DNA of 33,600 nt, taken from assembly GCA_003599595.1 (NCBI GenBank), contig QZIP01000023.1, positions 1-33,600 of the forward strand, in the 5' to 3' direction. The translations under genes were made by a program, and so were the position numbers. Below the pieces are notes generated by a model. That model was not told the origin of the DNA. It made no database searches and worked only from the letters and a program-made list of their open reading frames with translations. This DNA comes from Candidatus Parcubacteria bacterium. GTDB lineage: Bacteria > Patescibacteriota > Microgenomatia > Levybacterales > GWA1-39-11. Below, piece by piece: positions 3,019 to 31,001 of this stretch (position 1 is its first letter; each line of letters begins with the position of its first letter).

Positions 3019-3516
3019 ATGTCTCTTTTTTGGGCGAATTTATATTCTCTGGTTATTATCGCACAAACTCAAGTTGATCCTATATCTGGAGGGGCTGGTT
3101 GGGTAGGCGCTGGTTTATTGGGGTTGGTACTTGGTTGGTTGTTACTAAAACATCTTCCAGATAAGGATAAATACATCAAGGAAATAATTAAAGAACATGG
3201 AGAAACTGTTAATAAAGTTACAGAAAAACATGAGATAACAGTTAAGGGAGTTGCTGAAAAACATGAACAATCTCTAAAGTTAGTTGCTGAAAAACATGAG
3301 TTAGCTATAAAACAAGCAGCTGAAAAACATTCAGCTGCGGTAGAGGCTGCTGCTCAAAGAACTGAACTAGCAGTAAATAAAGTTGCTGAAAAACATGCTG
3401 AAATAGTTACAGCAATGGCTACTACATTTACAGCATCGTTAGAAAATGTAGTTAATCATTGTAAAGATGAAATGGATAGAATTGCTAGTTATTGGCAACA
3501 AAGTAAAAATAATTAA
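3019..3516 (+). CDS. Membrane-anchored hendecad coiled-coil protein
   Basis: A 165-residue protein. Residues 24-44 form a Gly-rich membrane segment (GGAGWVGAGLLGLVLGW). Residues 56-132 then hold seven consecutive 11-residue repeats, most of the form VAEKHExxxKx. An 11-residue period predicts a long, nearly straight coiled-coil rod. An ATG at 3015 gives only a short frame, so 3019 is the start; GGAGAGAG lies upstream. It is first in its transcription unit, directly before the subtilisin-like protease. A lysis or spanin-like role, or an envelope tether, is conceivable; nothing proves it. Confidence 0.75.
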   Translation: MSLFWANLYSLVIIAQTQVDPISGGAGWVGAGLLGLVLGWLLLKHLPDKDKYIKEIIKEHGETVNKVTEKHEITVKGVAEKHEQSLKLVAEKHELAIKQAAEKHSAAVEAAAQRTELAVNKVAEKHAEIVTAMATTFTASLENVVNHCKDEMDRIASYWQQSKNN

Positions 3517-3528
3517 GGTATTTTAAAT

Positions 3529-4578
3529 ATGAGCGATTTTGTACTTCCACCTTTTACTGTTGAACAACAAATGATGTCTCTTACAGAGACTATGGATTGG
3601 TCTTTGTCATTATATGGAATTCCAAATGCTTGGAAGAGAAGTAGAGGTAAGGGTCAATTAGTTGCTGTTCTTGATACAGGAGTTGATAAAAGACATTATG
3701 AACATGGGGATCTTAAAAATTCAGTAGTAGCAGCTAAGGATTTTACAAATTCTAGAGTTGGTTTTTTTGATTTGAATGGACATGGGACACATACTGCTGG
3801 AACTATTGGTGCAAGAGAAGATAATAATGGTGTTGTAGGGGTGATGCCAGAATCTAGTTTGGCAATTGGTAAAGTTCTTGGTGATAGTGGTGGTGGTAGT
3901 GGTCAACAGGTTGGAGATGGTATTGATTGGTCAGTCAGTATTGGTGCTAGTGTAATAAGTTTGTCATTAGGTTCTAATTATGCTGACCCAATAATGTATC
4001 AAGCTATTAAGAGAGCAGTAGAAGCAGGATGTCATGTTATATGCGCTGCAGGTAATGAAGGTAAAATTACAGGTGAAAATACTGTGGGATATCCTGCTAG
4101 ATGGGCAGAGTGTGCAGCTGTTGGAGCAGTAGATGAAAATGGTAGAGTTGCTTCTTTTTCTTCTAGAGGTCCAGAAGTTGATATTTGTGCTCCTGGCGTC
4201 AATATATTGAGTACATATTTGAACGGTGGATATGCTAAGTTATCTGGAACAAGTATGGCAACTCCGTTTGTTTCTGGAGTTGTGGGTTTACTTTTAAGTA
4301 CTGGCGTTAAATTGTCTCCTAAAGCCTTGATTGAAATGCTTAGAAGTACTGCAAGAGCTTGGAAGCCAGGCGATGATTGTGATGGTTCGGGGGTAGGTTT
4401 GATTAATCCTGAAACGTTATTGACACCACCTCCACCTCCACCACCTCCACCTCCACCACCTCCGCCTTCTGTACCAGAACCTCCACCAAATTTGGAGATG
4501 GTTAAAATTGGTCCTTTTTCAGTTTCAGTAGAAAAAATAAGAGATAAAACTGGATTATTTATTTGTGTGGGGGGATAA
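3529..4578 (+). CDS. Subtilisin-like serine protease (S8 family)
   Basis: A 349-residue protein with the full subtilase catalytic set: Asp49 in VLDTGVD, His85 in GHGTHTAGT, oxyanion Asn176 in AAGNEG, and Ser242 in GTSMATPF. It begins almost at the mature catalytic domain, with no signal peptide and no inhibitor-type propeptide. After the protease core there is a run of 14 prolines (about residues 300-313) and then a short tail of some 30 residues ending CVGG. Such proteases are uncommon in phages. Possible jobs are host surface-layer breakdown, virion maturation or lysis. It overlaps the next small gene by one base and follows the coiled-coil membrane protein closely. Family assignment is very sure; its role is not. 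Confidence 0.93.
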   Translation: MSDFVLPPFTVEQQMMSLTETMDWSLSLYGIPNAWKRSRGKGQLVAVLDTGVDKRHYEHGDLKNSVVAAKDFTNSRVGFFDLNGHGTHTAGTIGAREDNNGVVGVMPESSLAIGKVLGDSGGGSGQQVGDGIDWSVSIGASVISLSLGSNYADPIMYQAIKRAVEAGCHVICAAGNEGKITGENTVGYPARWAECAAVGAVDENGRVASFSSRGPEVDICAPGVNILSTYLNGGYAKLSGTSMATPFVSGVVGLLLSTGVKLSPKALIEMLRSTARAWKPGDDCDGSGVGLINPETLLTPPPPPPPPPPPPPPSVPEPPPNLEMVKIGPFSVSVEKIRDKTGLFICVGG

Positions 4579-4707: not shown

Positions 4708-5091
4708 ATGCCTTATGCACCGCCAACGTTAAGTCAAGCTCAAACAGCATTAAGTGATGCCCTTGAGCCACTTACAACTGGAAAGATTAATACCCCAAAG
4801 CAAATTTGGGCATTAGAAACATTGCAGTTGTTTGCTATTGCAAACATATTTAGTATACCAGAATCTGGAATTGTAGCTGCACAAGCTACCCCAGAATCTA
4901 AAGTTGAGTTAACAGATGAGCAAATGCTTGTGTTGTTAAATCAGTGGAATACCAGTGGTAATATGTATACTACAATTGCCCATCCTCAAAATGCTAATTT
5001 ACTAGCTGGTATTAATTGGGCACAGCTTATTAAGATGATATTGCCTCTATTGTTGAATGAAATATTGAAGTATTTAGATACTTCTAAGTAA
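4708..5091 (+). CDS. Hypothetical protein with hydrophobic C-terminal helix
   Basis: A 127-residue protein; GAGG lies about ten bases before the ATG. Mostly helical and Ala/Thr/Leu-rich, with a C-terminal stretch (INWAQLIKMILPLLLNEIL) hydrophobic enough to sit in or on a membrane. No known motif. It closes the protease subcluster. The next 276 bases contain no ATG-started gene but do contain a structured-RNA candidate. Confidence 0.6.
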   Translation: MPYAPPTLSQAQTALSDALEPLTTGKINTPKQIWALETLQLFAIANIFSIPESGIVAAQATPESKVELTDEQMLVLLNQWNTSGNMYTTIAHPQNANLLAGINWAQLIKMILPLLLNEILKYLDTSK

Positions 5092-5367: not shown

Positions 5368-7266
5368 ATGAAGAAATATTGGAGAGTTTTGTTGTTGGCA
5401 CTGTTTACTCCTTTTTTATTGGCGTTTTCAGGAGAAAACGAGGTATCTTCTTTTTCTGGGGACAATAATAAACAGCCAAAAGTAGAAAATCAATTTGTTA
5501 AAGTTGACCAACCAATAAGTGGTCCCCCTGCTCCCAGAGTTGATGTCCCAGTTAATAATGCTGTGAGACTTTCTATTCCGTTCGATGCAGTTTCAGTTGT
5601 TCAGCAAGATGCGATTGAAGTAGAACAAAAAGATCCTTTTTCTCTCCCATTTATTCGGTGGATATGGGTTCAATCTGGAGACATAAATGACTTTCAAGCA
5701 TTATCAGACACATTGCAAAAAATCAGCAGAAGCGAAGTGCCAATACAGCCAGTCATACGGGGAATTGTCGCCAGGATTGATTTGCGGTGGTTTGCCGCAA
5801 GCAAAGAGGATCTCCAAGATTGGATCAATCTTTGGGAAAACTTTCAGTTTGATCCGTGGTTCTCAACAAACATCACACAGAATACCTTAGCATTACTATC
5901 TGAAGATTATAAGCAGAATAAGATAGTTCAGGTTTGGAAAAATAGAAGAGTTTGGGATAAAGACAAACAAATATGGGTTAATACAGGTGAGAAAGTAATT
6001 GCTGATGTTAAAATTGCTAGTTTAAAGGATGTTCTTGTAGTTCGGTCTAATGCTGATCATTTGAAAAAAAGTGGAATTGAAATGCTACAATTTGGAACCA
6101 AAACTTTGGCTCCAGTTGTAGATAGTAGGTATTTTACTGGTAGAGTATTATCTACTATTAAAGGAAAAATAAATGGAAAAGATAGTGTATTTAGTACCAT
6201 TTGGGGTGGTTTGTATTATGAGTTTTCAGGTATTAGAAAGGCGACCACTAAAGGGATCAAAAATGATTTTGATCAATTGTTGTTTGATTTAGGAGTTGGA
6301 AGTAAAGAAGAAGATTATGAACAATTGTTCGAAAGAACACGCGGTGGATTAGAAGCTGCCGGAATGTTTCATTCTAATGTCACTGGAAAACCTAGAAGAA
6401 TTATTTGGTTTCCAATAGAAAAGATGAGATTGACTCAGGGCATACCTGCAATATTTATAACTGAAGATATTAAAGATGAAGATGTAGATACTGATGCTCA
6501 TCCAATTTTAAATTTGGTGAAGTTTAAACCAGATGCATATGAAGTTATTTTTGTAAAACTAAATGGTCAACAGGGGTATGCCATATTTAATGGGAAGAAA
6601 GAGTTATTAGATGAAGCCACTCAGGATGTGGTATCAGATCACAAGATTCCTGTTCCTAATACTACTAGATTACAGTCTGCAATAAGTTGTATTAGATGTC
6701 ATGGTAGTGATGATGGTTGGAAGCCATTTTCTAATGATGTTAAAACTTTATTGTCTAGGAAGAACAATAACAATTTGTTAGATGTGTTTGGAGATACTAG
6801 TAAAAGTGAGTTGAATAAACCAATTTTTGACACATTGTTGAATATTGCTGGAAAATATGAAGGGGATCCTACTGTATTGATGATGGATTTGAGAAGAGCT
6901 TATGCTAAAGGAGTTTTAAGAGCTACTGGCCCTTGGAAAAATGATAATGGACAACTGAATACTGTTAAACTTTCTTCTGAAAGAATAGCAGCTGTATACG
7001 CAGAAGACAGGTATAATTTAATTGATGCTGAACTTGCGTTAAGATATTTAGGATATCCACAAGCTCCAAAAGGAAAAGAAGTAGAAGTTCTGAATAAAGT
7101 ATTACCACCAGTTAAATTGAATATTGGTGGAATAGTTCCTGAAGACGCGAGAATAGGAGCTTTAAAAAGAGGTATAAAGATTACACCAAGAGATTGGGCA
7201 TTTGTTTATTCTTTTGCACTAACAAGGGCAATGGAAACAGCCTCTCAAATGAAGGATAAGAAATGA
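5368..7266 (+). CDS. Exported cytochrome-c-like protein with one CxxCH motif
   Basis: A 632-residue protein with a clear signal peptide (MKKYWRVLLLALFTPFLLAF) and one c-type heme attachment motif, CIRCH, at residues 441-445. A stretch near residues 95-165 (FIRWIWVQSGD... and ARIDLRWF...) resembles the N-terminal part of large exported planctomycete proteins that carry a C-terminal cytochrome-like domain, as I recall them. The start is supported by AGAGGAGG and the signal peptide. Such proteins acquire heme outside the cytoplasmic membrane, using the host maturation system. In a phage this is very unusual. It lies in a unit with a second CxxCH protein (7660-8691) and a subtilase. No electron-transfer partner is evident, so the motif could also be structural or vestigial. 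Confidence 0.72.
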   Translation: MKKYWRVLLLALFTPFLLAFSGENEVSSFSGDNNKQPKVENQFVKVDQPISGPPAPRVDVPVNNAVRLSIPFDAVSVVQQDAIEVEQKDPFSLPFIRWIWVQSGDINDFQALSDTLQKISRSEVPIQPVIRGIVARIDLRWFAASKEDLQDWINLWENFQFDPWFSTNITQNTLALLSEDYKQNKIVQVWKNRRVWDKDKQIWVNTGEKVIADVKIASLKDVLVVRSNADHLKKSGIEMLQFGTKTLAPVVDSRYFTGRVLSTIKGKINGKDSVFSTIWGGLYYEFSGIRKATTKGIKNDFDQLLFDLGVGSKEEDYEQLFERTRGGLEAAGMFHSNVTGKPRRIIWFPIEKMRLTQGIPAIFITEDIKDEDVDTDAHPILNLVKFKPDAYEVIFVKLNGQQGYAIFNGKKELLDEATQDVVSDHKIPVPNTTRLQSAISCIRCHGSDDGWKPFSNDVKTLLSRKNNNNLLDVFGDTSKSELNKPIFDTLLNIAGKYEGDPTVLMMDLRRAYAKGVLRATGPWKNDNGQLNTVKLSSERIAAVYAEDRYNLIDAELALRYLGYPQAPKGKEVEVLNKVLPPVKLNIGGIVPEDARIGALKRGIKITPRDWAFVYSFALTRAMETASQMKDKK

Positions 7267-7640
7267 TTAATGATTGTGTTGAATGTAATGAAGTTGGTTA
7301 TTCTATTGGAAATGTATTTGTTCATTTGTCAAGTACTATGATGTTTGGGAATTATGGGTTGGGTAATATAAGTATATCGTCTAGCGATGATGAAAAGCTA
7401 AAAGTGGAGGACATTAAAAAACTTTCCCCGAAGTCAGGAGATCTTTTGGTTTTTAAGTTTAAAGATCGTGTTGAAGGTTTGTATGAAAAGCTTAGAAATC
7501 ATTTAGATGACTGGGGATTTAAAGATATACATTTTGTTATTATGATAGAGGGTAATGATGTTTCTTGTCTAGATGAGGGGGAGATGGAGAAATTTGGATG
7601 GATTCGCAAACGTGAAAATCGTGGTTTTGAATTTTTATGA
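7263..7640 (+). CDS. Hypothetical protein
   Basis: A 125-residue protein whose ATG overlaps the stop of the cytochrome-like gene (ATGA). It is acidic with alternating beta-like and helical segments, and CVEC near the N-terminus. There is no signal peptide, so it is cytoplasmic, unlike its two exported neighbours. I do not recognise it. The overlap implies co-translation with the gene before it. Confidence 0.6.
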   Translation: MINDCVECNEVGYSIGNVFVHLSSTMMFGNYGLGNISISSSDDEKLKVEDIKKLSPKSGDLLVFKFKDRVEGLYEKLRNHLDDWGFKDIHFVIMIEGNDVSCLDEGEMEKFGWIRKRENRGFEFL

Positions 7641-7659
7641 TCCTTATCTAGAGGTATAT

Positions 7660-8691
7660 ATGCGTTGGTTCCTTTTAGTTTTTGTAGTGTTAATTGCTAT
7701 TTTGGTTAGTATTCCTTCAGCTCAATCAGCTGAAGTAGTTAATAGTGATGGATATGTGCATGCTGATGGCTTTTATGTCAAAAATGGTGTGACTCATACT
7801 CGTGATATTGTTTGGTATAAGAAATGGGTTTGGGTTAATGCTTGTTATAAGGGTGGTTGCTATGTAAATGGTTATTGGACATACACTTGGGAATACTATT
7901 ATGAATATACTCCAGTAAAGCTGCCAGCTGCTTCTGATCCTGAATGGCGCATTAAGTTGTTAGCTATTGCTGCGGCTCGTGACAAGGCCGAAGGCAAGTT
8001 GCGTTATTATGCCCAAGAACAGAATCATTTCTTGGAAGCTGTTAATGCTTTGGGTCTTCATGGTAATTTTAGATATGAGGCTTATGGTCGTAACCCAGTA
8101 GCTCCTACTGGATATGGTAATTTACAATTATCTCATGCTGGTATAAATGGAAATACTATTTATGGATATAGCTATTCACAGGTTGCTGATGCTTACGGAC
8201 ATACTGATTTAAACGCTTTATATCAACAGTCTGGGTTCCTTACTAAGAACGCGCAGCAGCTTGCAGGACAAGCTAATAGCGAGTTTAACGCTTTAATCCA
8301 GCAGGCTGGTGGAAACGCTGCTAGGATTGCTGAGATACTTGCTAAAGGTAAGGTTGGAAGGGATGTTATCGAAAGTATCAAGGGAAGTCCAGAAACTAGA
8401 GTTGAAACAAAAGTTAATGGAACTGTAACTGTTCCAAATACTGTTAATGCGTCTAGTGATGTTGTTCAGAGTTTCTTGAAATTAAGTGGACCAGCAACAT
8501 GTGTTGCTTGTCATAGTGGAAATAAGTTGGAAGGTGGATTTGATGTTTCTAGGATTCCAACTATGGAACCACAAGAAATAATTGAAAAAGTTCTACCAAG
8601 ATTAGTGGATAAGAATGAAAAGAATAGAATGCCAAAAGGACTTCCTGCTTTAACTGGTGAACAAGTTAGACAATTTATTGGTGGAAATTAA
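7660..8691 (+). CDS. Exported cytochrome-c-like protein, C-terminal CxxCH domain
   Basis: A 343-residue protein. The ATG at 7660 is preferred to an upstream in-frame start at 7573 because it begins a signal peptide (MRWFLLVFVVLIAILVSIPSAQSA), has GAGG just upstream and follows the previous stop. The N-terminal part is rich in Tyr, Trp and Gly (about residues 20-90), and the middle is Ala/Gln-rich and helical. The C-terminal 70 residues look like a small c-type cytochrome domain: CVACH at residues 281-285, then a Gly-Gly-Phe-Asp segment, then NRMPKG (possible Met axial ligand) and a final LTGEQVRQFI helix. It matches the planctomycete cytochrome type in outline. Expected location: periplasm or envelope. 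Confidence 0.75.
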   Translation: MRWFLLVFVVLIAILVSIPSAQSAEVVNSDGYVHADGFYVKNGVTHTRDIVWYKKWVWVNACYKGGCYVNGYWTYTWEYYYEYTPVKLPAASDPEWRIKLLAIAAARDKAEGKLRYYAQEQNHFLEAVNALGLHGNFRYEAYGRNPVAPTGYGNLQLSHAGINGNTIYGYSYSQVADAYGHTDLNALYQQSGFLTKNAQQLAGQANSEFNALIQQAGGNAARIAEILAKGKVGRDVIESIKGSPETRVETKVNGTVTVPNTVNASSDVVQSFLKLSGPATCVACHSGNKLEGGFDVSRIPTMEPQEIIEKVLPRLVDKNEKNRMPKGLPALTGEQVRQFIGGN

Positions 8692-8946
8692 ATGTGTGTG
8701 TATTCTATGGTAATGGATCACTACTATGAAAAGTTTCAAGAAAAGAAGTCCATTCCATGGCCCCCTTACGTTTATCCACCGCAGCCAATGATCACTCAGG
8801 AAGAGATTGAGGAATTTAGGAAGTTATTAGAACGCGCAAAGGAATATGATAAGAAGAATAATGAGCCTGATTGTGAACTGGAAGAGAAGCGTAAAAAGGT
8901 GAAGGATCTGGCTAAAGAGTTGGGTGTTGAGATAGCGTTTTTGTAA
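8692..8946 (+). CDS. Small hypothetical protein
   Basis: An 84-residue protein starting directly after the stop of the CxxCH gene. A Pro/Trp/Tyr-rich N-terminal part (PWPPYVYPPQP) is followed by a charged helix (EEIEEFRKLLERAKEYD) and a Lys/Glu-rich tail ending LGVEIAFL. It has no export signal. Direct abutment suggests the same messenger. Function not recognised. Confidence 0.65.
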   Translation: MCVYSMVMDHYYEKFQEKKSIPWPPYVYPPQPMITQEEIEEFRKLLERAKEYDKKNNEPDCELEEKRKKVKDLAKELGVEIAFL

Positions 8947-8964: not shown

Positions 8965-9264
8965 ATGAGAAAGTTTGTGTATGGTTTGATCGCAGCTGCA
9001 GCTCTGTTTATTGCAGCACCAAAGGCTCAGGCAAGTAATGTGTTTTTCGTAACTGATTCATTTACTCCTGTGACTGTGGTTTCTACTAATTTTGGAACAA
9101 CTACTTTTTTCACTCCTAATAACAGAGTGTTTGTCAGAGGGTTTAATCCTTTTGTCAGAGTTAACAATGTTGTAGTTGTGCAAAATCGTGGATTTTTCAG
9201 AGACCGTGTGGTTGTTCGTGGGTTTCGTGGTCGTGTAGTTGTAAATAACGTTTTTGTTCGGTAA
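8965..9264 (+). CDS. Small secreted Val/Arg/Phe-rich protein
   Basis: A 99-residue protein with a textbook signal peptide (MRKFVYGLIAAAALFIAAPKAQA) and a highly repetitive mature part dominated by Val, Phe, Asn and Arg (FVRGFNPFVRVNN..., RVVVRGFRGRVVV). The net charge is strongly positive and the pattern alternates, suggesting a beta-rich, envelope-binding or self-associating peptide. AAAGG lies about eight bases upstream. It is the last gene before two hairpins at 9273-9319. No family recognised. Confidence 0.7.
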   Translation: MRKFVYGLIAAAALFIAAPKAQASNVFFVTDSFTPVTVVSTNFGTTTFFTPNNRVFVRGFNPFVRVNNVVVVQNRGFFRDRVVVRGFRGRVVVNNVFVR

Positions 9265-11944: not shown

Positions 11945-12730
11945 ATGCCAATAATAATTAAAGTATGTGAGTTTTGCTCTGTATTATTTAATTGTCACAA
12001 TCCTAAACGTAGATTTTGCGGTCTCAAATGCAGCTCTAAATATTCAGGAAGTTTGAAAAAAGGTAAAAAGCTATCCCAAAAACATAGAGAACGTCTTAGT
12101 GTTTCTGCTAAACGTAGGAATAAATGGGTTGGAAAGGATAATCCTAATTACCAAAATAAAACGTTGAGTAGGGAGGATGTGTATAATAGATGGAAAAAGT
12201 CTATGAAAATAAGGGGCCAGCCTTGGGGAGAAAAAGAACGCAAGGAACATTCTGAAAGAATGTTAGGACCAACAAATGGAATGAGAGGAAAATCTCATAC
12301 AGATAAATACAAAAGAAATATGTCTGAATTAAAAATTCAACAATATAAGGATGGAATTGTTAAATTCAGATCTAGTCATTCTTCAAAAGCAGAATTAGAA
12401 GTAGGAGAACTATTAAATAGTTGGGGACTAGCTCCTGTTCCCCAGTTTCAAATTAGAGGATTTACATACTTTTACGACTTTTACATTCCATCTTTAAATC
12501 TAATATTGGAATTTAATGGTGATTATTGGCATGCAAACCCAAATAAATACAAGTCTGGAACTTTAATCAAATTTATGAATCAAGATTCTGTATTAGTGGA
12601 TGAAGTTTGGGAAAGAGATTCAATTAAAACAAAAACAGCTTTGGATAATGGATTTAAAATAGTTGTGTTGTGGGAGAATGAATTCATGTTAAATGGTGAG
12701 AAGGCGTTGAGGGGATTGTTAAAAATATGA
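11945..12730 (+). CDS. Free-standing homing endonuclease, Vsr-like nuclease domain
   Basis: A 261-residue protein starting directly after the phosphoesterase stop. The N-terminus has a zinc-finger pattern (C8, C11, C25, C29). It is followed by very basic segments of NUMOD3-like DNA-binding type (GPTNGMRGKSHTDKYKRNMS, about 108-127). The C-terminal domain has E150, D178 in FYDFYIPSLNLILEFNGDYW, E189 and H196. That is the layout of the Vsr/EDxHD nuclease fold known from phage homing enzymes. It likely cuts a site in a related genome lacking the insert, spreading itself. It overlaps the next gene by four bases. No duplicated gene end was seen here, unlike the inserts at 18818 and 30165. Confidence 0.85.
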   Translation: MPIIIKVCEFCSVLFNCHNPKRRFCGLKCSSKYSGSLKKGKKLSQKHRERLSVSAKRRNKWVGKDNPNYQNKTLSREDVYNRWKKSMKIRGQPWGEKERKEHSERMLGPTNGMRGKSHTDKYKRNMSELKIQQYKDGIVKFRSSHSSKAELEVGELLNSWGLAPVPQFQIRGFTYFYDFYIPSLNLILEFNGDYWHANPNKYKSGTLIKFMNQDSVLVDEVWERDSIKTKTALDNGFKIVVLWENEFMLNGEKALRGLLKI

Positions 12731-16023: not shown

Positions 16024-16113
16024 ATGTATTTGTTGAATAATTTGATTTTTGAAAGGCGACTGGAGGAGTTGAATATTCCAGTTTATAGAAAATGGCAGAA
16101 GATAACAGTTTAA
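16024..16113 (+). CDS. 29-residue leader ORF overlapping the large terminase start
   Basis: AAAGGAGGAGG lies five bases before an ATG at 16024. Its 29-codon frame ends at 16113, 22 bases inside the large terminase gene. The terminase ATG at 16092 has no good ribosome site of its own. Translation of this short peptide would therefore deliver ribosomes to the terminase start. The peptide (29 residues, ending WQKITV) has no recognised motif. Confidence 0.6.
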   Translation: MYLLNNLIFERRLEELNIPVYRKWQKITV

Positions 16114-18113
16114 ATCCAAAAGAAAACGATTTACGTCAGGCAGCAGCGCAAGAACTTCTTAGAAGACAAAAAGCACGTACAAATCTTATTGATTTTACCC
16201 GCTATACGTTTCCCACTTATATAGCGGAACCAGCTCACGAATTAATTGCCAGTAAACTAGATGATGTCATCAACGGTCGTATAAAACGTTTGATGATTTC
16301 GATCCCCCCACAACACGGAAAATCAGAGCTCGCATCAGTTAGAATGCCGGCGTTTTGGCTTGGTAAAAGACCAGATGATCCTATAATTTTATGTTCTTAT
16401 GGTGCTAGTTTAGCTGAATCTAAATCTAGACAAGCTAGACAAGTTGTAGAATCAAGAGAATATAATCTTTTATTTCAAGGCGCTAGTACCAGAAAAGACA
16501 GTAGAAGTATATCTGAGTGGCAAATTAATCAAGGAAGAGGTTATTTAGTAGCAGCTGGTGTTTCTGGTCCAATTACTGGAAAAGGTTGTATGTTGGGTAT
16601 TATTGATGACCCTTTGAAAGATTGGCAAGAAGCACAATCTCAAACTATTCGAGATGCATGCTGGGATTGGTATAGAACTACATTTCTTACTCGTGTGTGG
16701 GAAGCTGGAGCCATTATTGTGATTCAAACAAGATGGCATGAAGATGATTTAGCTGGTAGATTGATAAAAGAACAGCCTGGTAAGTGGGAAGTTTTGCGGC
16801 TTCCAGCCATTGCCGAAACTCAAAATGAGCGAGATGAAAATGATGAATTTTTAGGTCTTTCAAGAGGTAATGTAGATCCATTAGGTAGATCTCCTGGTGA
16901 TCCTCTTTGTCCAAGACGGTATAGTTTAGAAGCGTTAGAATCACTTCGTAATGCTGTAGGTCCTAGTGGTTTTGCTGCATTATATCAAGGTGTCCCCAGA
17001 GCTACTGAAGGTAATCAATTTCATAGAAATTGGTTTCAATTAACAGAATCTGTACCTTATGAAGCTAAAAGAGTAAGAGCTTGGGATAAAGCTGGTACTA
17101 AAGGTGAAGGTGACTATACTGTTGGTGCACTAGTTGCTATGCATGAAGGAAAGTTTTATGTAGAGGATATCGTTCGAGGAAGGTGGCTTGCTGGTGAGCG
17201 CGATAAAATAATGCGCACCACTGCGGAACAAGATGCTACTAGGTATAAAAACAAAGTAGTAATATGGGTTGAGCAAGAACCAGGTTCTGGCGGTAAAGAT
17301 AGTGCTCAAAGTTCTATTCAACTCCTTGCTGGTTTTCCTGTATATGTTGATAAAGTATCTGGTCCTAAAGAAGTTAGAGCTAATCCATTTGCCGCGCAGG
17401 GGTTTGCTATGAATGTATATATGAAAAGAGGACCATGGAATACTGATTTGTTGAATGAATTTTTAGCGTTTCCAAATGGTAAACATGATGACATAGTAGA
17501 TGCTGTTTGTATGGCGTTTAATAAGTTAGCCATTGGAGTTGGTTTGACCCCAACAGTTAGGGTATATGGATTAAAGACAGGCGGTTTGAACCTTGGCGCT
17601 AAGATTCCAAAAAAACAAATTAGAATAGCTGTTTGTAGTAAAGAAGAATTGGAATTTTTACATTTAGATCAAGAGTGTGTTCTTATATCAATAGTTGATC
17701 CTAACACAACTCATACAGTTCCCCCACATAGATGTGAAAGAATGTTAGGCAGAATAGAACTATCATTTGCTGATATAGATCCAAATTCCAATGAGTGTAC
17801 AGATTGGAGTAAAGAAATAGAACCTTGGGGACAAACTGCTGAAGAATTAATGATGAGTCGTGAACAAGCTAGGAAAATGTGGGGTTTTATTTTGAAGAAA
17901 AGAGATGTACCTCCCATAACTTATATTATTCAAGATAATGGAAATGGGGATAGAAGAGCATTAAGTATGGCATTAGGAATCTCAGATGGATTGGGATTTG
18001 TAAAAGGTAAAGCTGTATATTTGGTGAATAATCCAGATTTCATTTGTGAGGAAGAACCATCAAATAAGCATATATATCAATTGTGTAAATCTACTAGATA
18101 CATGGTAATTTGA
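16092..18113 (+). CDS. terL: Large terminase fused to a degenerate phosphatase-like domain
   Basis: A 673-residue protein. Residues 1-480 are a complete large terminase: Walker A in IPPQHGKSE (71-79), Walker B in MLGIIDDP (167-174), then a RNase-H-type nuclease with D332 (RAWDKAG), E394/E396 (WVEQEPGSGG) and D466/D467 (GKHDDIVDA). After a linker, residues 509-673 look like a small tyrosine-phosphatase-type domain: ISIVDP, RIELSFADIDP, SREQARKMW, then a strand reading TYIIQDNGNGDRRA. There the catalytic HCxxGxxR signature has become QDNGNGDRR, so catalysis is not expected. Such a fusion is new to me. A protein- or phosphate-binding accessory role is a guess. The next gene's start region overlaps the end. 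Confidence 0.92.
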   Translation: MAEDNSLNPKENDLRQAAAQELLRRQKARTNLIDFTRYTFPTYIAEPAHELIASKLDDVINGRIKRLMISIPPQHGKSELASVRMPAFWLGKRPDDPIILCSYGASLAESKSRQARQVVESREYNLLFQGASTRKDSRSISEWQINQGRGYLVAAGVSGPITGKGCMLGIIDDPLKDWQEAQSQTIRDACWDWYRTTFLTRVWEAGAIIVIQTRWHEDDLAGRLIKEQPGKWEVLRLPAIAETQNERDENDEFLGLSRGNVDPLGRSPGDPLCPRRYSLEALESLRNAVGPSGFAALYQGVPRATEGNQFHRNWFQLTESVPYEAKRVRAWDKAGTKGEGDYTVGALVAMHEGKFYVEDIVRGRWLAGERDKIMRTTAEQDATRYKNKVVIWVEQEPGSGGKDSAQSSIQLLAGFPVYVDKVSGPKEVRANPFAAQGFAMNVYMKRGPWNTDLLNEFLAFPNGKHDDIVDAVCMAFNKLAIGVGLTPTVRVYGLKTGGLNLGAKIPKKQIRIAVCSKEELEFLHLDQECVLISIVDPNTTHTVPPHRCERMLGRIELSFADIDPNSNECTDWSKEIEPWGQTAEELMMSREQARKMWGFILKKRDVPPITYIIQDNGNGDRRALSMALGISDGLGFVKGKAVYLVNNPDFICEEEPSNKHIYQLCKSTRYMVI

Positions 18114-18817: not shown

Positions 18818-19756
18818 ATGAATAAAAGTAAAAATTTCTTCAGAAATTGTCCCAATCCAGATAATAATTTTAACTGTAAGAATCGGATAGGACATATTTC
18901 GGAGAAAGGGATGATCTATGCTGATCAAAATAAGAGAAAATGTTCTAGTTGTAAAATGTTTAAAAATGACAAGGTTATTCAAAGTAAAAATGTTTTAAAT
19001 AAATTGTATTTGAGAAAATGTCCAAACGTAAATGGCAATCCAAACTGTTTGTTATTATTGAGTTACATATCTGAAAATAATATGTGGGTGGCTGAAGAGA
19101 TGGGAATTTTGTGTACAAGTTGTACACAAAAAAGAAATGGTAATACTAAAGGAGAAAACAATCCATTTTATGGCAAAACACATAATGAGGAAACAAGGAA
19201 TAGAATGTCTGTATTAAAGAAAAAATGTATTGTGGATGGAAGATTTGGTTTTGGGACAAATGGAGGTATATGTGGAGTACATATTTCTAGTGAGCTTCCT
19301 TTTTACAGCAGTTGTGAATTGAATTTCATATTAAACTATGAAGATCGCAAAAATTTAGTAAGAGCTGATGTTGGGATAGAACGCATGCCTATACCTTATG
19401 GTGACACAACATATCTTCCGGACTTTAAATCTAAAGACAAAGTTCCCAATGTAATTTACGAAATAAAAGAGACAGGTGTTAAAGTAAAGAAAAAGTGGAA
19501 GACGATTAAGGAAAAGCTTGTTTGTGCTGTAAACTGGTGTAAGGATCAATCAATGATTATAAAATTGGTTGAAATGCCAACTCTTAGCAAAACAAGAGTC
19601 GTTTTTCCGTTATGTAGATCTGGAGTAATATCCCTTAGAGGTAAATGGAAGAAACAATATGATGAATGGTTAAAGAATCAACCCCCCGAAGTGATGTTAT
19701 CTCAGACAACTAAAAAAGTAATTCAAATGTCTGGTGTCCCCAATGAAAAAGCTTGA
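18818..19756 (+). CDS. Free-standing homing endonuclease, PD-(D/E)xK type, with captured gene tail
   Basis: A 312-residue protein. The N-terminus has two copies of a Cys module (CPNPDN...C...CSSC and CPNVNG...C...CTSC). A NUMOD3-like motif follows (GENNPFYGKTHNEETRNRMS, 112-131). The nuclease core has E167 (SSCELNF), P201-D202 (TTYLPDF) and E215-x-K217 (VIYEIKE), a PD-(D/E)xK arrangement. The related enzyme at 27319 ends shortly after KWKKQYYE. This one continues past KWKKQYDEWL with about 25 residues that resemble the end of the upstream gene. There is no clear ribosome site; it starts four bases after the previous stop. Confidence 0.87.
   Translation: MNKSKNFFRNCPNPDNNFNCKNRIGHISEKGMIYADQNKRKCSSCKMFKNDKVIQSKNVLNKLYLRKCPNVNGNPNCLLLLSYISENNMWVAEEMGILCTSCTQKRNGNTKGENNPFYGKTHNEETRNRMSVLKKKCIVDGRFGFGTNGGICGVHISSELPFYSSCELNFILNYEDRKNLVRADVGIERMPIPYGDTTYLPDFKSKDKVPNVIYEIKETGVKVKKKWKTIKEKLVCAVNWCKDQSMIIKLVEMPTLSKTRVVFPLCRSGVISLRGKWKKQYDEWLKNQPPEVMLSQTTKKVIQMSGVPNEKA
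19682..19735 (+). repeat. Downstream copy of duplicated C-terminal coding segment
   Basis: This is probably the original 3' end of the gene at 18122, now fused in frame to the endonuclease. It still leads into the overlapping start of the next gene at 19743, as the original layout probably did. See the matching copy at 18743-18796. Confidence 0.7.
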
Positions 19757-20140: not shown

Positions 20141-21886
20141 TTGGGTAGACTTGCAAATCTAATGAAGTCAGGAATAACAACTCAAAGGTATCTTGGGGTT
20201 GGTCAAAACCCACGTACGCTTCGTTCAGAAGTTGAGTTAGGCAGATCCCGTTGGCGTGAAGCATTTCATAACAAAGAAGAACCAAATAGAGAAACTCCTA
20301 AAGTAATACCTGGTGGATCTTGGGGTAGATCTTCATTATCCACGGATGCCAGTGTTCGTAGATTAGTGGAGGCAATGAGATCGCAAGCTCCCGGAGGTTG
20401 GAGCGACAACCGCTGGGAGCAATCACAACACTTCGTTGGTATTACATATGCTGCCATTCATAGAATTGGCGAGCAGATGGCACAATCTGAATTTCAAGTG
20501 TATGTTAAAGATGATAATCATCAAGATGGTAAAAGACCCGTTAAAAGAGGAGAGCCTGGTTGGGATTTAATTAAGTTGTTGGAAAAACCCAATCATGATG
20601 ATACGTTTGGTGAGATGTTATATAAGATAAATTTACAAATGGATTTAACTGGAATGTCATTAACTTGGATGGTTCCTAACGTTATGGGAATGCCAATGGA
20701 ATTGTATTCAATTCCAACTTCTATAGCTATTCCTCAACCAGCTATCAATCCAGATTATCCTGATGGATATTATAGAATCCAACCAGTATATCCATATGGA
20801 CCATTCTCTTCTTATCCTACACCTGCATCAGCTGTTGGTGCTCCAATTCCAGCACAGTGGATGCTAAGAATTAAATATCCGCATCCAATATTACCATATG
20901 ATGGATATTCTCCTCAAACAGCTATGAGGCTTCATCTTGATGAGATCGAGCAGATGGATAGAAGCCGTTGGTATAATATGAAGAGAGGTATTAGTCCTTC
21001 TGCAGTTCTTCAATTTTCAAAAGATAATGCCCAACCATTACCAGAAGAAGAAATAGCTCGTATTAGAGCAGAAATGGAAAATACATTCCAAGGTCCAGAA
21101 AATGCAGGACAATTTTATGTCGCAACGCCAGGTGCTGAGTTACAACCCTGGGGAAATAAACCCATTGATATGGATTACCAGAGTGGATGGGATCAATTGG
21201 TTTCATTCGTACTGGGCGCAGGTTTTGGCATTACTAAACCAGCTGCTGGTATGATCGAAGATTCTAGTTATTCCACTTTGTTTGCAACATTAAAACAATT
21301 ACATCTTATTACTATTGGTCCTAAATGTAATAGAATTGCTTCTAAATTTACTCGTCATCTTGCTCCGTTTTATGGTGATGATTTAATTGTTGAAATAAAA
21401 GCTCAACGAATTGATGACCATGAAGTACTTTCAGGCAAGCTTTCTCAACTGGCTGGCAATAGGGCAATGACAATTAATGAGCTTCGTAAGGCATTAGATT
21501 GGCCAATGACTGATGAAGAGTGGGGTAAAGAAAGAGTTGGTGAGCCACCTGCGCCTCCAGGTATGGAAGGAATGCCACCAGGTGGTGGAGGAATGGGTGG
21601 ATTAGAAGCTATGATGGGTGGTGGAATGCCAGGTATGGAAGGTGGTAATCCAGAAGAAATGGCTGCTCAAGGCGGAGAAGTTGATGCTCTAGGTGGAATG
21701 CCATTACCTCCTGATCTTGATGAAGAACCAACTGAAGTTACTGAATCAAGACCATTAGCTGGTAAGCTCGGACTTGGTGCATTAGGGCCGCGTAAGAGAT
21801 TCGATACTGAAGTGGTTGATATTAAAAAGAAACTTAGGGCTCGTTACAAGAAATTAGCCAAAATTAGTTCTAACGGAGTACATTAA
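20141..21886 (+). CDS. Portal protein
   Basis: A 581-residue protein (TTG start with AAGGTGAG upstream; ATG 20162 is an alternative). The sequence has the layout of an HK97/SPP1-type phage portal. There is an N-terminal YAAIHRIGEQMAQSEF helix, a PxHDDTFGEMLYKINLQMDLTG stretch, a Pro/Tyr-rich wing, and a long helical stem (EEEIARIRAEMENTFQGPENAG). It continues through DYQSGWDQLVSFVLGAGFGI to a C-terminal part. That part has a Gly/Met/Pro-rich linker (about 463-515) and a basic end (KKKLRARYKKLAK). Twelve copies would form the DNA channel at the capsid vertex that docks the terminase. Position after terminase supports the call. Confidence 0.88.
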   Translation: MGRLANLMKSGITTQRYLGVGQNPRTLRSEVELGRSRWREAFHNKEEPNRETPKVIPGGSWGRSSLSTDASVRRLVEAMRSQAPGGWSDNRWEQSQHFVGITYAAIHRIGEQMAQSEFQVYVKDDNHQDGKRPVKRGEPGWDLIKLLEKPNHDDTFGEMLYKINLQMDLTGMSLTWMVPNVMGMPMELYSIPTSIAIPQPAINPDYPDGYYRIQPVYPYGPFSSYPTPASAVGAPIPAQWMLRIKYPHPILPYDGYSPQTAMRLHLDEIEQMDRSRWYNMKRGISPSAVLQFSKDNAQPLPEEEIARIRAEMENTFQGPENAGQFYVATPGAELQPWGNKPIDMDYQSGWDQLVSFVLGAGFGITKPAAGMIEDSSYSTLFATLKQLHLITIGPKCNRIASKFTRHLAPFYGDDLIVEIKAQRIDDHEVLSGKLSQLAGNRAMTINELRKALDWPMTDEEWGKERVGEPPAPPGMEGMPPGGGGMGGLEAMMGGGMPGMEGGNPEEMAAQGGEVDALGGMPLPPDLDEEPTEVTESRPLAGKLGLGALGPRKRFDTEVVDIKKKLRARYKKLAKISSNGVH

Positions 21887-27318: not shown

Positions 27319-28251
27319 ATGGCTAAGAATTATTTGTTTTGTAGAAAATGTCCCAATCCAGATAACAATGAAAATTGTAAACTTTTAATTGGTTATAAAT
27401 ACGAAAATAAAATGTGGGATGCTGAGGAAAGACAAACTTTTTGTAAGAGTTGTACATTTCTGGGAAACAGGAACCCATTCTTTGGCAAGAATCACACCGA
27501 AGAAACTAAAGAAGCAATGTCTAAAATTCGTATTGATCTTTGGGAATCTGGTGTGTTTGATACACCTGAAGTTAGATTTAATATGAGTCAGTCTCATATT
27601 GGAAATAAATCTACTTCTGGTCAAGAATTATCCATAAGGCGAAGATTTGCTATTAGGAAAAGAATGATGGGTGAAAATAATCACTTTTATGGTAAAAACC
27701 ACACTCATGAATCAAGGAAAAAGATTTCTAAATCTAGAGAAGGAAAATATTTTGGTGAGAATAATCCTTTTTATGGTAGAAAACACTTAGAAGAGACTAA
27801 AGAATTATGTAGAGAAGGAGCATTAAAAAGCAAAGGATCTGGTCATGGAATAAGTGGTAAATATAATGGGCTACATTTTAGATCTACATGTGAGTTGTTG
27901 TTTTTAAAACAAAACTACACCAACACCATGGTTTCGGCAGAGGCAAAAGGATTCAGGTGTGAGTATATAGATTCTACTGGAAAATTAAGATATCATTATC
28001 CCGATTTTGTAGATGGAAATGTAGTTTATGAGATCAAACCATTTGGATGGGAAAGAGATTCAAGGTGTGTTGATGTACCATTGAAAAGAAAAGCAGCTGA
28101 AAAAATAATTACTGATAAAGGATTTAAATATGTTTTTATTGAAATGAAATGTATTTCCAAGTCTGAGGTGTTTGCTTTATTCGCGCAAGGTAAAATTGAT
28201 CTGGACACCAAGTGGAAAAAACAGTATTATGAAAAACTTGGAGTTTATTAA
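27319..28251 (+). CDS. Free-standing homing endonuclease, PD-(D/E)xK type
   Basis: A 310-residue protein starting two bases after the fibre gene. The N-terminal Cys module (C8, C11, C20, C42, C45; CPNPDNNENC) is shared with the enzyme at 18818. Three NUMOD3-like units follow (GNRNPFFGKNHTEETKEAMS, MGENNHFYGKNHTHESRKKI, GENNPFYGRKHLEETKELC). The nuclease core has E192 (STCELLF), P228-D229 (YHYPDF) and E238-x-K240 (VVYEIKP). Its end, KWKKQYYEKLGVY, defines the natural C-terminus of this subfamily here. No duplicated gene ends were found at its borders. It overlaps the next ATG by one base. Confidence 0.87.
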   Translation: MAKNYLFCRKCPNPDNNENCKLLIGYKYENKMWDAEERQTFCKSCTFLGNRNPFFGKNHTEETKEAMSKIRIDLWESGVFDTPEVRFNMSQSHIGNKSTSGQELSIRRRFAIRKRMMGENNHFYGKNHTHESRKKISKSREGKYFGENNPFYGRKHLEETKELCREGALKSKGSGHGISGKYNGLHFRSTCELLFLKQNYTNTMVSAEAKGFRCEYIDSTGKLRYHYPDFVDGNVVYEIKPFGWERDSRCVDVPLKRKAAEKIITDKGFKYVFIEMKCISKSEVFALFAQGKIDLDTKWKKQYYEKLGVY

Positions 28252-30164: not shown

Positions 30165-31001
30165 ATGGCTGGTGAAATAAAACATTGTGAAAAATGTAAT
30201 TGTGAACATGATGGTTCTTATGGCTCAGGTAGATTTTGCTCTAAACATTGCGCCTATGGTAGAAATGTGAATGGAAATAAGAATCCCATGTATGGTCAGA
30301 CAGTATATGAGATTTGGGTAAATAAGTATGGTAAAGAAGTTGCGAACATAAAATGGAGAAACTGTGTGATTTCTCAAAAGGGTAAGGGAACTGGCCCCAG
30401 GCCTAATCAGTCTGTTAAGGTTTCTGGTTGTTTAAATCCTATGTGGGGTCGTACACATTCTGATGGGGCAAAAGCTGCAATATCCCATAAAAATACAGGC
30501 AGAAAACATTCAATTAAGTCTAACATTCAAAAATCTATATCTGGAAAAAGAGCTTATGCTGAAGGTAGATTTAAGTTTTCCGGAGAGAAAAGATCAATAA
30601 GAGGATATTGGAAAGGATTGTATTATGGAAGTACATCTGAATTGATGAGAATGATGAATCATCCAAATTTATCTTTATTGAAAAGAGGCCCATCGATATC
30701 ATATGAGTGGTTTGATGGTTCTCACCACACATATTTATCAGATTTCTTGAATGTGTTGTCAAACACAATTGAAGAAATAAAATATCCAGGCAAACAACTA
30801 TCTGAGTTAGAGCAACTTAAAGTTGAAGCAGGTAAAAAATATGCAAAAGAGAATGGTTTAAATTATAATGTGTTGTACGAACATTCAATACCCAAGGAAG
30901 AAATGTTTATTTTAAGGAAACATTATATGGTTACTTTAGATTCTAAACATGAAACAGAATATCAAATATGGTTGGAAAGGAGAAACAAACGTGGCTGGTG
31001 A
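30165..31001 (+). CDS. Free-standing homing endonuclease with captured gene start
   Basis: A 278-residue protein with AAAGGTG upstream. The N-terminal Cys cluster (C8, C11, C13, C25, C29) resembles a zinc finger. NUMOD3-like stretches follow (NKNPMYGQT, LNPMWGRTHSDGAKAAIS). The nuclease core has E159 (STSELMR), D193 (TYLSDF) and E204-x-K206 (IEEIKYP), the same plan as the enzymes at 18818 and 27319. Its first residues, MAGEI, and 13 bases of DNA are repeated at the start of the next gene. The simplest reading is that it inserted just inside that gene, took over the original start and rebuilt one at its own 3' end. The two genes overlap by 11 bases. Confidence 0.85.
   Translation: MAGEIKHCEKCNCEHDGSYGSGRFCSKHCAYGRNVNGNKNPMYGQTVYEIWVNKYGKEVANIKWRNCVISQKGKGTGPRPNQSVKVSGCLNPMWGRTHSDGAKAAISHKNTGRKHSIKSNIQKSISGKRAYAEGRFKFSGEKRSIRGYWKGLYYGSTSELMRMMNHPNLSLLKRGPSISYEWFDGSHHTYLSDFLNVLSNTIEEIKYPGKQLSELEQLKVEAGKKYAKENGLNYNVLYEHSIPKEEMFILRKHYMVTLDSKHETEYQIWLERRNKRGW
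30166..30178 (+). repeat. 13-bp direct repeat, upstream copy
   Basis: TGGCTGGTGAAAT covers codons 1-5 of the endonuclease. An identical copy lies at 30992-31004, covering the start of the following gene. The pair marks the borders of the endonuclease insertion. Confidence 0.8.

Follow-up and report, generated by a model that had tools for sequence, protein, structure and literature searches.

Paired exported-looking, cytochrome c-like proteins encoded beside proteases on phage contigs and in putatively phage-derived planctomycete gene clusters

Two CxxCH proteins encoded on a phage contig

The 33,600-nucleotide stretch of DNA analysed here (the window; contig QZIP01000023.1 of assembly GCA_003599595.1) carries terminase and portal genes that mark it as a phage contig and two genes, p1 and p2 (Table 1), whose products look exported and contain one CxxCH motif each. 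Both open reading frames (ORFs), with their CIRCH and CVACH motifs, had been pointed out in a first-pass annotation made from the sequence letters, and both are indeed present. The same annotation placed them in one unit, a fair description except that the genes are not adjacent, a 125-aa ORF lying between them. Export was judged by eye from an N-terminal hydrophobic stretch in each protein, accompanied in p2 by an AQSA-type site. The p1 protein contains just two cysteines, both in CIRCH, and its start codon is preceded by AGGAGG. The listed start of p2, an ATG at 7573 inside the preceding ORF, is probably wrong; the start at 7660, which has AGAGG upstream, is preferred and probably correct.

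Table 1 Coordinates of p1, p2 and associated features. Positions are those of the window, except for the packaging cluster; L numbers denote contigs and loci outside the window.
Feature	Position	Strand	Remarks
Membrane segment and long coiled coil (by eye), candidate in holin position	3019..3516	+	Matches L255 counterpart (blastp 8e-7)
S8 subtilase that contains a proline-rich linker and lacks an obvious signal peptide	3529..4578	+	Pfam S8 2.4e-53
Small, probably helical cassette protein	4708..5091	+	Matches L255 protein (blastp 2e-5); none at 0.05 in the other six compared
p1, exported-looking protein	5368..7266	+	632 aa; CIRCH at 6688-6702
125-aa ORF between p1 and p2	7263..7640	+	phrog_10352 (unknown function) 5.4e-5; not recognised in other cassettes read
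p2, exported-looking protein with predicted C-terminal class I cytochrome c domain	7660..8691	+	343 aa; CVACH 8500-8514, Met-Pro 8629-8634
84-aa ORF	8692..8946	+	Pfam matches weak, all under cut-off; not recognised in other cassettes read
Small secreted-looking repetitive cassette protein	8965..9264	+	Counterparts by position after p2
Terminase large subunit	16092..18113	+	phrog_38 1.5e-102; marks contig as phage
Portal protein	20141..21886	+	phrog_12 6.3e-32; Pfam Phage_portal 1.6e-30
Packaging cluster	L257 1-10366, L259, L261, L272 and 13 similar chromosomal loci		ParB-like, AAA/GNAT, terminases, portal, shared flanks

The CxxCH motif occurs in 2 of the 39 window genes (the plus-strand ORFs, without the last, cut-off one and without those of the minus strand), namely p1 and p2, and in 2 of the 300 stop-to-stop window ORFs of at least 40 aa. 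Composition-matched shuffled copies contained it in 0 of 20000 cases for p1 and in 0.045% for p2. Being this rare in both the genes of the window and the shuffled copies, the motif is present in p1 and p2 beyond chance.

Relatives of the two proteins, described below, keep these features. CxxCH is found in all 21 copies of p1, that of the window included (18 copies and three later ones), and each of the 18 readable copies of p2 has CxxCH followed by exactly one Met-Pro, 29-48 residues past the histidine. The methionine of this Met-Pro, which the first-pass annotation had noticed as part of NRMP, is a possible distal heme ligand of p2. Profiles made without the window sequences matched p1 at 2.8e-75 (17 relatives) and p2 at 4e-7 (14 relatives) when run against the 300 window ORFs, and profiles from chromosomal copies only did so at 1.8e-20 (11 copies) and 9.7e-7, respectively, with the next-best window ORFs at 0.12 or worse. 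As the p1 relatives came from searches begun with p1, and the p2 relatives were found by position and motif, these values measure the strength of the match and do not amount to an unbiased discovery. Direct searches returned little. Neither window protein had a significant match in Pfam, PHROGs or NCBIfam, or a match at E ≤ 1 among 50,697 phage and 72,556 plasmid records; the single sequences had no useful match in the Protein Data Bank, and a first scan of genome contigs with the p1 sequence alone found no relative.

A cytochrome c domain at the C-terminus of p2

A profile of the p2 domain built from 15 sequences (A6) was compared with solved structures. It matched the cytochrome c subunit of the cytochrome bc1 complex at 1.6e-8, with further matches to cytochrome c6 and CcoP, and the best 60 of 193 matches were, by name, cytochromes or other heme proteins. 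At E ≤ 0.1, 14 of the 15 family members matched Cytochrome_CBB3 and nine matched PSCyt1. By profile, the C-terminus of p2 is a class I cytochrome c domain, with heme binding predicted, in agreement with the c-type-cytochrome likeness that the first-pass annotation had proposed to check by such searches. With the PSCyt1 and Cytochrome_CBB3 domains it has in common CxxCH, the Met-Pro ligand motif and the family profile match; unlike them, p2 is phage-borne, has a long N-terminal region of its own and has its partner, p1, encoded in a separate gene.

Recurrence of the pair in viral contigs

Alignment-based scans of IMG/VR revealed nine further contigs with the pair (L216, L217, L252, L253, L254, L255, L284, L288 and L289). 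A second exported-looking gene follows p1 within about 0.7 kb in all nine, and its CxxCH is readable in eight, L253 ending before this part of p2; the p2 start of L252 is ambiguous. Relying on few short patterns, the scans likely missed copies. Scans with single p1, single p2 or the p1 of L216 each found the query itself only, and phmmer detected neither p1 nor p2 in 79 other contigs that carry the terminase of the window, apart from one weak p2 match (E 0.018). Viral nature was checked for four contigs, which encode a virion protein (L216, 4.9e-8), a terminase (L217, 2.3e-62), a tail protein (L252, 2.4e-35) and a tape measure protein (L254, 8.4e-53); for L253, L255, L284, L288 and L289 it rests on IMG/VR membership.

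This recurrence bears on the possibility that host sequence was fused to a phage contig, which the first-pass annotation had named as an outcome that would undo its reading. The window proteins are 100% identical, where compared, to those of IMGVR_UViG_3300007351_000041 (33651 bp), and the window also belongs, as contig C14, to a 1.4 Mb bin, G000 (85% complete); as the two may be one assembly, their agreement leaves some room for a misassembly. Such an error is nevertheless very improbable because p1-p2 is present in nine other viral contigs, four of which (L216, L217, L252 and L254) have terminase, tail or virion genes on the same contig. Furthermore, a chimeric join within the window is disfavoured by its uniform composition: the third-position GC of p1 (0.24) and p2 (0.22) is the same as that of most window genes (≤0.30 in 36 of 39, range 0.16-0.49).

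A planctomycete family with two CxxCH motifs in one polypeptide

When p1 alone was compared with 36 genomes selected with a 16S probe pattern and taken as planctomycetes, its CxxCH region was matched with a best E value of 7.2e-6; matches at E ≤ 1 came from 10 of the 36 genomes, several of these being chance. A search with an alignment of p1 and four such planctomycete proteins (A1) covered 397 genomes, an even sample of a larger group, from the planctomycete class to which the Pirellulales bin G064 belongs; 142 of them have the family at E ≤ 0.001. Among 35 genomes named as other phyla, the family was detected in a single one, a Poribacteria bin. No more than three candidates per genome were scored in the scan of the 397 genomes, hence copy number is a lower bound. 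The p1 family is mainly planctomycete, and p1 aligns with its cellular members along most of its length. In the two members scanned, L204 and L205, the p1-like part is without a Pfam name.

Thirty-seven family ORFs, some of them genes fetched twice, were read in loci L203-L247. Thirty carry two CxxCH motifs, 335-396 residues apart, in one polypeptide; L204 and L219, which are the same gene, have their start within the first domain, and a further five (L203, L205, L220, L221 and L240) are of the split type. The cellular two-CxxCH proteins (e.g. L207, L213, L215) have both heme motifs and the p1-like part in common with the phage pair, but are organised differently: their cytochrome domain is N-terminal in a single polypeptide, which in some continues into WD40-like repeats (by eye), whereas the phage and cluster form consists of two genes with p1 first, p1 itself having one CxxCH and the cytochrome domain residing in p2. 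Fusion of two proteins elsewhere is classical evidence of joint function. Because both halves are found in one ORF in these relatives, p1 and p2 are likely to work jointly.

A tree was calculated from 40 p1-type sequences (6 phage, 10 cluster and 24 cellular), leaving out L249 and L254, which are partial, L284, L288 and L289, which were found later, and 13 of the 37 cellular-locus rows (split-type, duplicate and further cellular ones). A branch supported at 100/100 sets the cellular sequences apart, and the chromosomal cluster sequences group at 95/98. The phage sequences form two groups whose deep placement is weak (61/8), with a single phage group in 34% of bootstrap trees; L216 is a long branch. 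As the split and cellular forms part at 100/100, the split form of p1 appears to be old. The suggestion of the first-pass annotation that the proteins were captured from the host surface must be narrowed accordingly. Recent capture is ruled out by this separation and by the uniform third-position GC of the window; an exchange of p1-p2 between phage and cell would be ancient and could have run in either direction.

Split p1 genes in chromosomal packaging clusters

The split form of p1 is also present in eleven planctomycete loci (L248, L249, L250, L257-L261 and L270-L272). In nine of these p2 follows p1, and L248 stops at a contig edge. A profile of split copies (A4) matched 15 of the 397 genomes at E ≤ 1e-60. 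Among the 13 genomes at E ≤ 1e-120, a cut chosen after the table was seen, 10 have a characteristic terminase, hereafter the cluster terminase, 2.6-4.5 kb away; in the remaining three, p1 is at a contig end (G083), p1 and the terminase are on separate contigs (G454), or there is no terminase at 1e-60 (G295). The cluster terminase itself was found in 66 of the 397 genomes (E ≤ 1e-60).

Comparison of 18 loci, 11 with p1 and seven chosen without it, with those that supplied queries counted too, revealed a packaging cluster in which genes for a ParB-like protein, an AAA/GNAT protein, the small and large terminase subunits and the portal are kept in 17 of 18. A flank with an endonuclease/phosphatase-family gene is common to 11 of the 18, and MoaB is also present in six; of the seven loci without this flank, L249 and L260 are too short to show it, and L248, L250, L267, L269 and L271 have none in the stretch read. 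Beyond the portal, three loci were read by eye: further head-type genes follow in G400 and G203, and cellular-looking genes follow at once in G458, whose copy of the cluster thus appears incomplete after the portal. The planctomycete packaging cluster looks like a phage-derived element inherited in place and may be gene-transfer-agent-like. In PMC7947584, a planctomycete prophage terminase is placed near RcGTA-like ones.

Most of the loci without p1 (L263-L269) also encode a conserved 280-aa protein and a protein that by eye resembles NlpC/P60; the copy tested, from L264, had no Pfam match.

Host of the phage

The window is binned with a small-genome bacterium, G000. A search for the cytochrome c assembly family PF01578 detected it in none of the 21 genomes of this group (G000 and 20 relatives), with 9 of 14 controls matched, and the family is present in 14 of the 14 planctomycete genomes with split p1. 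Neither p1 nor p2 was found in 59 relatives of G000. A search for PSCyt1 in G000 and the 20 relatives gave no match, but the controls matched none either, so the result is uninformative. Because the assembly family was detected in none of the 21 genomes of the bin group but in all 14 planctomycetes with split p1, the contig is probably misbinned, and the simplest reading is that the host of the phage is a planctomycete. The bacterium of bin G000 is disfavoured as the host by the same 0/21 result and by the lack of p1 and p2 in the 59 relatives, although the former may also be compatible with an unusual assembly route or with the incompleteness of the bin. The reliance on host cytochrome maturation that had been proposed for the two proteins fits the presence of the assembly family in the planctomycete genomes. 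One planctomycete phage is described as released without lysis, in a report whose main text does not contain the word 'cytochrome' (PMC10945688).

Proteases and other neighbours of the pair

As a raw count, a protease gene accompanies p1-p2 in 8 of the 10 viral contigs. These proteases belong to five unrelated families. The window and L253 encode S8 enzymes, L216 (9.5e-62) and L255 (1.4e-42) S53 enzymes of the kumamolisin type, L217 an astacin M12A (2.5e-7), L252 a papain C1A (4.2e-63), and L288 (5.6e-18) and L289 (2.3e-15) a matrixin M10A; only that of L288 also has a peptidoglycan-binding domain above the cut-off. S8 proteases are also found in the seven chromosomal loci L248, L250, L257, L258, L259, L261 and L272, and the S8 of the window is 54% identical to that of cluster L257 (2e-96) and 41% identical to that of phage contig L253 (1e-60). 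The protease slot is cut off in L254 (viral) and in L249 and L260 (chromosomal). Small proteins with a signal-like start follow p2 in L216, L217, L254, L255, L284, L288 and L289; the window counterpart has no significant match to the seven copies compared, with L284, L288 and L289 outside the comparison.

In L288, a sigma-70-type factor (1314-2081; Sigma70_r2 2.2e-14) is encoded just upstream of the cassette membrane protein and the matrixin.

These neighbours weigh on a reading in which p1 and p2 are surface or virion proteins, that is, decoys of their cellular relatives that serve superinfection exclusion, adhesion or the particle itself, with heme in a structural role. The homology to a planctomycete family and the signal-like N-termini fit such a role, as do the virion or packaging genes a few kilobases away in L216, L217, L252, L254 and the chromosomal clusters. 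However, the frequent proteases alongside the pair, the deep separation from the cellular forms and the strict keeping of both heme motifs, odd for a mere decoy, make us doubt it.

A proposed role in envelope opening

Considering (i) the cytochrome domain of p2 and the conserved heme motifs of both proteins, (ii) the recurrence of the pair and (iii) its neighbours, we propose that p1 and p2 are the separately encoded halves of an exported c-type cytochrome system with two hemes. Phages, most likely those of planctomycetes, and phage-derived clusters in planctomycete chromosomes would keep this system within a small cassette that would help to open or remodel the envelope for release. We put the probability of this reading at about one half. 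The cassette would comprise a membrane protein with a coil, a protease, p1, p2 and a small secreted protein, and would probably be expressed late. Both p1 and p2 would be exported, the cytochrome c assembly enzymes of the host would attach heme at each CxxCH, and the two proteins, presumably in contact with each other, would act as a redox pair outside the inner membrane; the redox action is suggested by the class of the domain. The protease, in the usual place of an endolysin, and the pair would then open or remodel the host envelope. An envelope role had been among the suggestions of the first-pass annotation, beside an effect on respiration, and it is favoured by the neighbouring protease and membrane protein genes as well as by the export signals; a role in egress is probable by analogy, given the arrangement of a membrane protein with a degrading enzyme.

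The same arrangement, a small membrane protein beside a degrading enzyme, is that of holin-endolysin lysis cassettes, and the M10A protease of L288 with its peptidoglycan-binding domain adds to the likeness. Unlike in those cassettes, a protease replaces the muralytic enzyme, two exported-looking cytochrome-type proteins are added, and the membrane protein has no holin profile match. We know of no phage lysis system that uses heme proteins.

Several observations count against this proposal. On the side of the proteins, single-sequence structure models were unusable (pLDDT 37.4 for p2 and 35.6 for p1). Window p2 scored 14.9 bits over its full length and 18.3 bits for the domain alone against PSCyt1 (PF07635), under the curated cut-off of 22 bits, so it is not filed as PSCyt1; against Cytochrome_CBB3 (PF13442) it scored 15.8 bits, with a cut-off of 27. 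p1 had no significant match among solved structures, its four matches at E 0.24-0.78 all being c-type cytochromes and the best (0.24) a multiheme cytochrome, which is at most suggestive of a c-type cytochrome. On the side of the cassette, L261 has p1 without p2, and neither motifs nor reading by eye pointed to a protease in the 6 kb available upstream of p1-p2 in L284. The slot of L270 and L271 is taken by an unassigned protein of 256-284 aa, and the protease has no fixed position, being upstream of p1 in six of the viral contigs and downstream in L216 and L255. Pfam holin families matched none of six membrane proteins (L288, L289, window, L252, L255 and L216), and the membrane protein of L257 had no PHROGs match. 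Finally, the slot of the loci without p1 (L263-L269) is occupied by a trypsin-like protease, with Trypsin_2 over the Pfam cut-off in 7 of 7. The protease thus does not need the pair, since it occurs where p1 and p2 are absent; it appears to be the steadier component of the slot, with the cytochrome pair belonging to one of its lineages.

This last point, together with the electron-carrying function of class I cytochrome c domains, speaks for another reading, in which p1 and p2 constitute an auxiliary redox system that supplies or withdraws electrons in the periplasm of the host during infection and the proteases are incidental neighbours. There is a precedent in phages with SoxD, published as a case of auxiliary metabolism (PMC8190135). 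The cassettes, however, contain no respiratory or dehydrogenase partner that we recognised, most neighbours having been assessed by eye, and what recurs beside the pair is proteases, membrane proteins and small secreted-looking proteins. We therefore regard an auxiliary redox system as unlikely.

The phage SoxD also shows that the statement of the first-pass annotation that phages are not known for such proteins was too strong. SoxD, a c-type cytochrome subunit, is reported in PMC8190135 to be encoded on two viral contigs, one without the first motif and both without the second. SoxC-SoxD and p1-p2 have in common a c-type cytochrome subunit in uncultivated phages, but SoxD is a subunit of a sulfur oxidation enzyme, found once beside SoxC, and lacks motifs, whereas p1 and p2 keep theirs and adjoin proteases. 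In our search of the open-licence literature, no publication described a conserved pair of phage cytochromes next to proteases.

Returning to the envelope-opening cassette, a more specific version of it can be formulated, which we offer as speculative: an exported two-protein c-type cytochrome of planctomycete phages and a swappable protease would break down or loosen a protein-rich envelope in a redox-assisted manner, and the same module would operate in a vertically inherited, gene-transfer-agent-like cluster of planctomycete chromosomes. Heme protein pairs retained across diverse phages are rare, and this one would make the success of a virus depend on the cytochrome c assembly of its host. 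It would also offer a way to study how viruses cope with the unusual planctomycete envelope; planctomycete phages appear little studied judging by the searches made. Finally, the pair would mark a putatively phage-derived cluster kept in many planctomycete chromosomes.

Other genes of the window

Four similar-looking genes with NPFYGK-type motifs (11945-12730, 18818-19756, 27319-28251 and 30165-31001), which we presume to be scattered homing endonucleases, are spread over the window; the first, the sole one scanned, had a weak Pfam match. A 160-aa ORF at 100-582 matches only the C-terminal part of RecA (1.2e-6), and a 976-aa Gly/Ser-rich repeat protein encoded at 24386-27316 matches the tail fibre profile phrog_892 at 7e-31.

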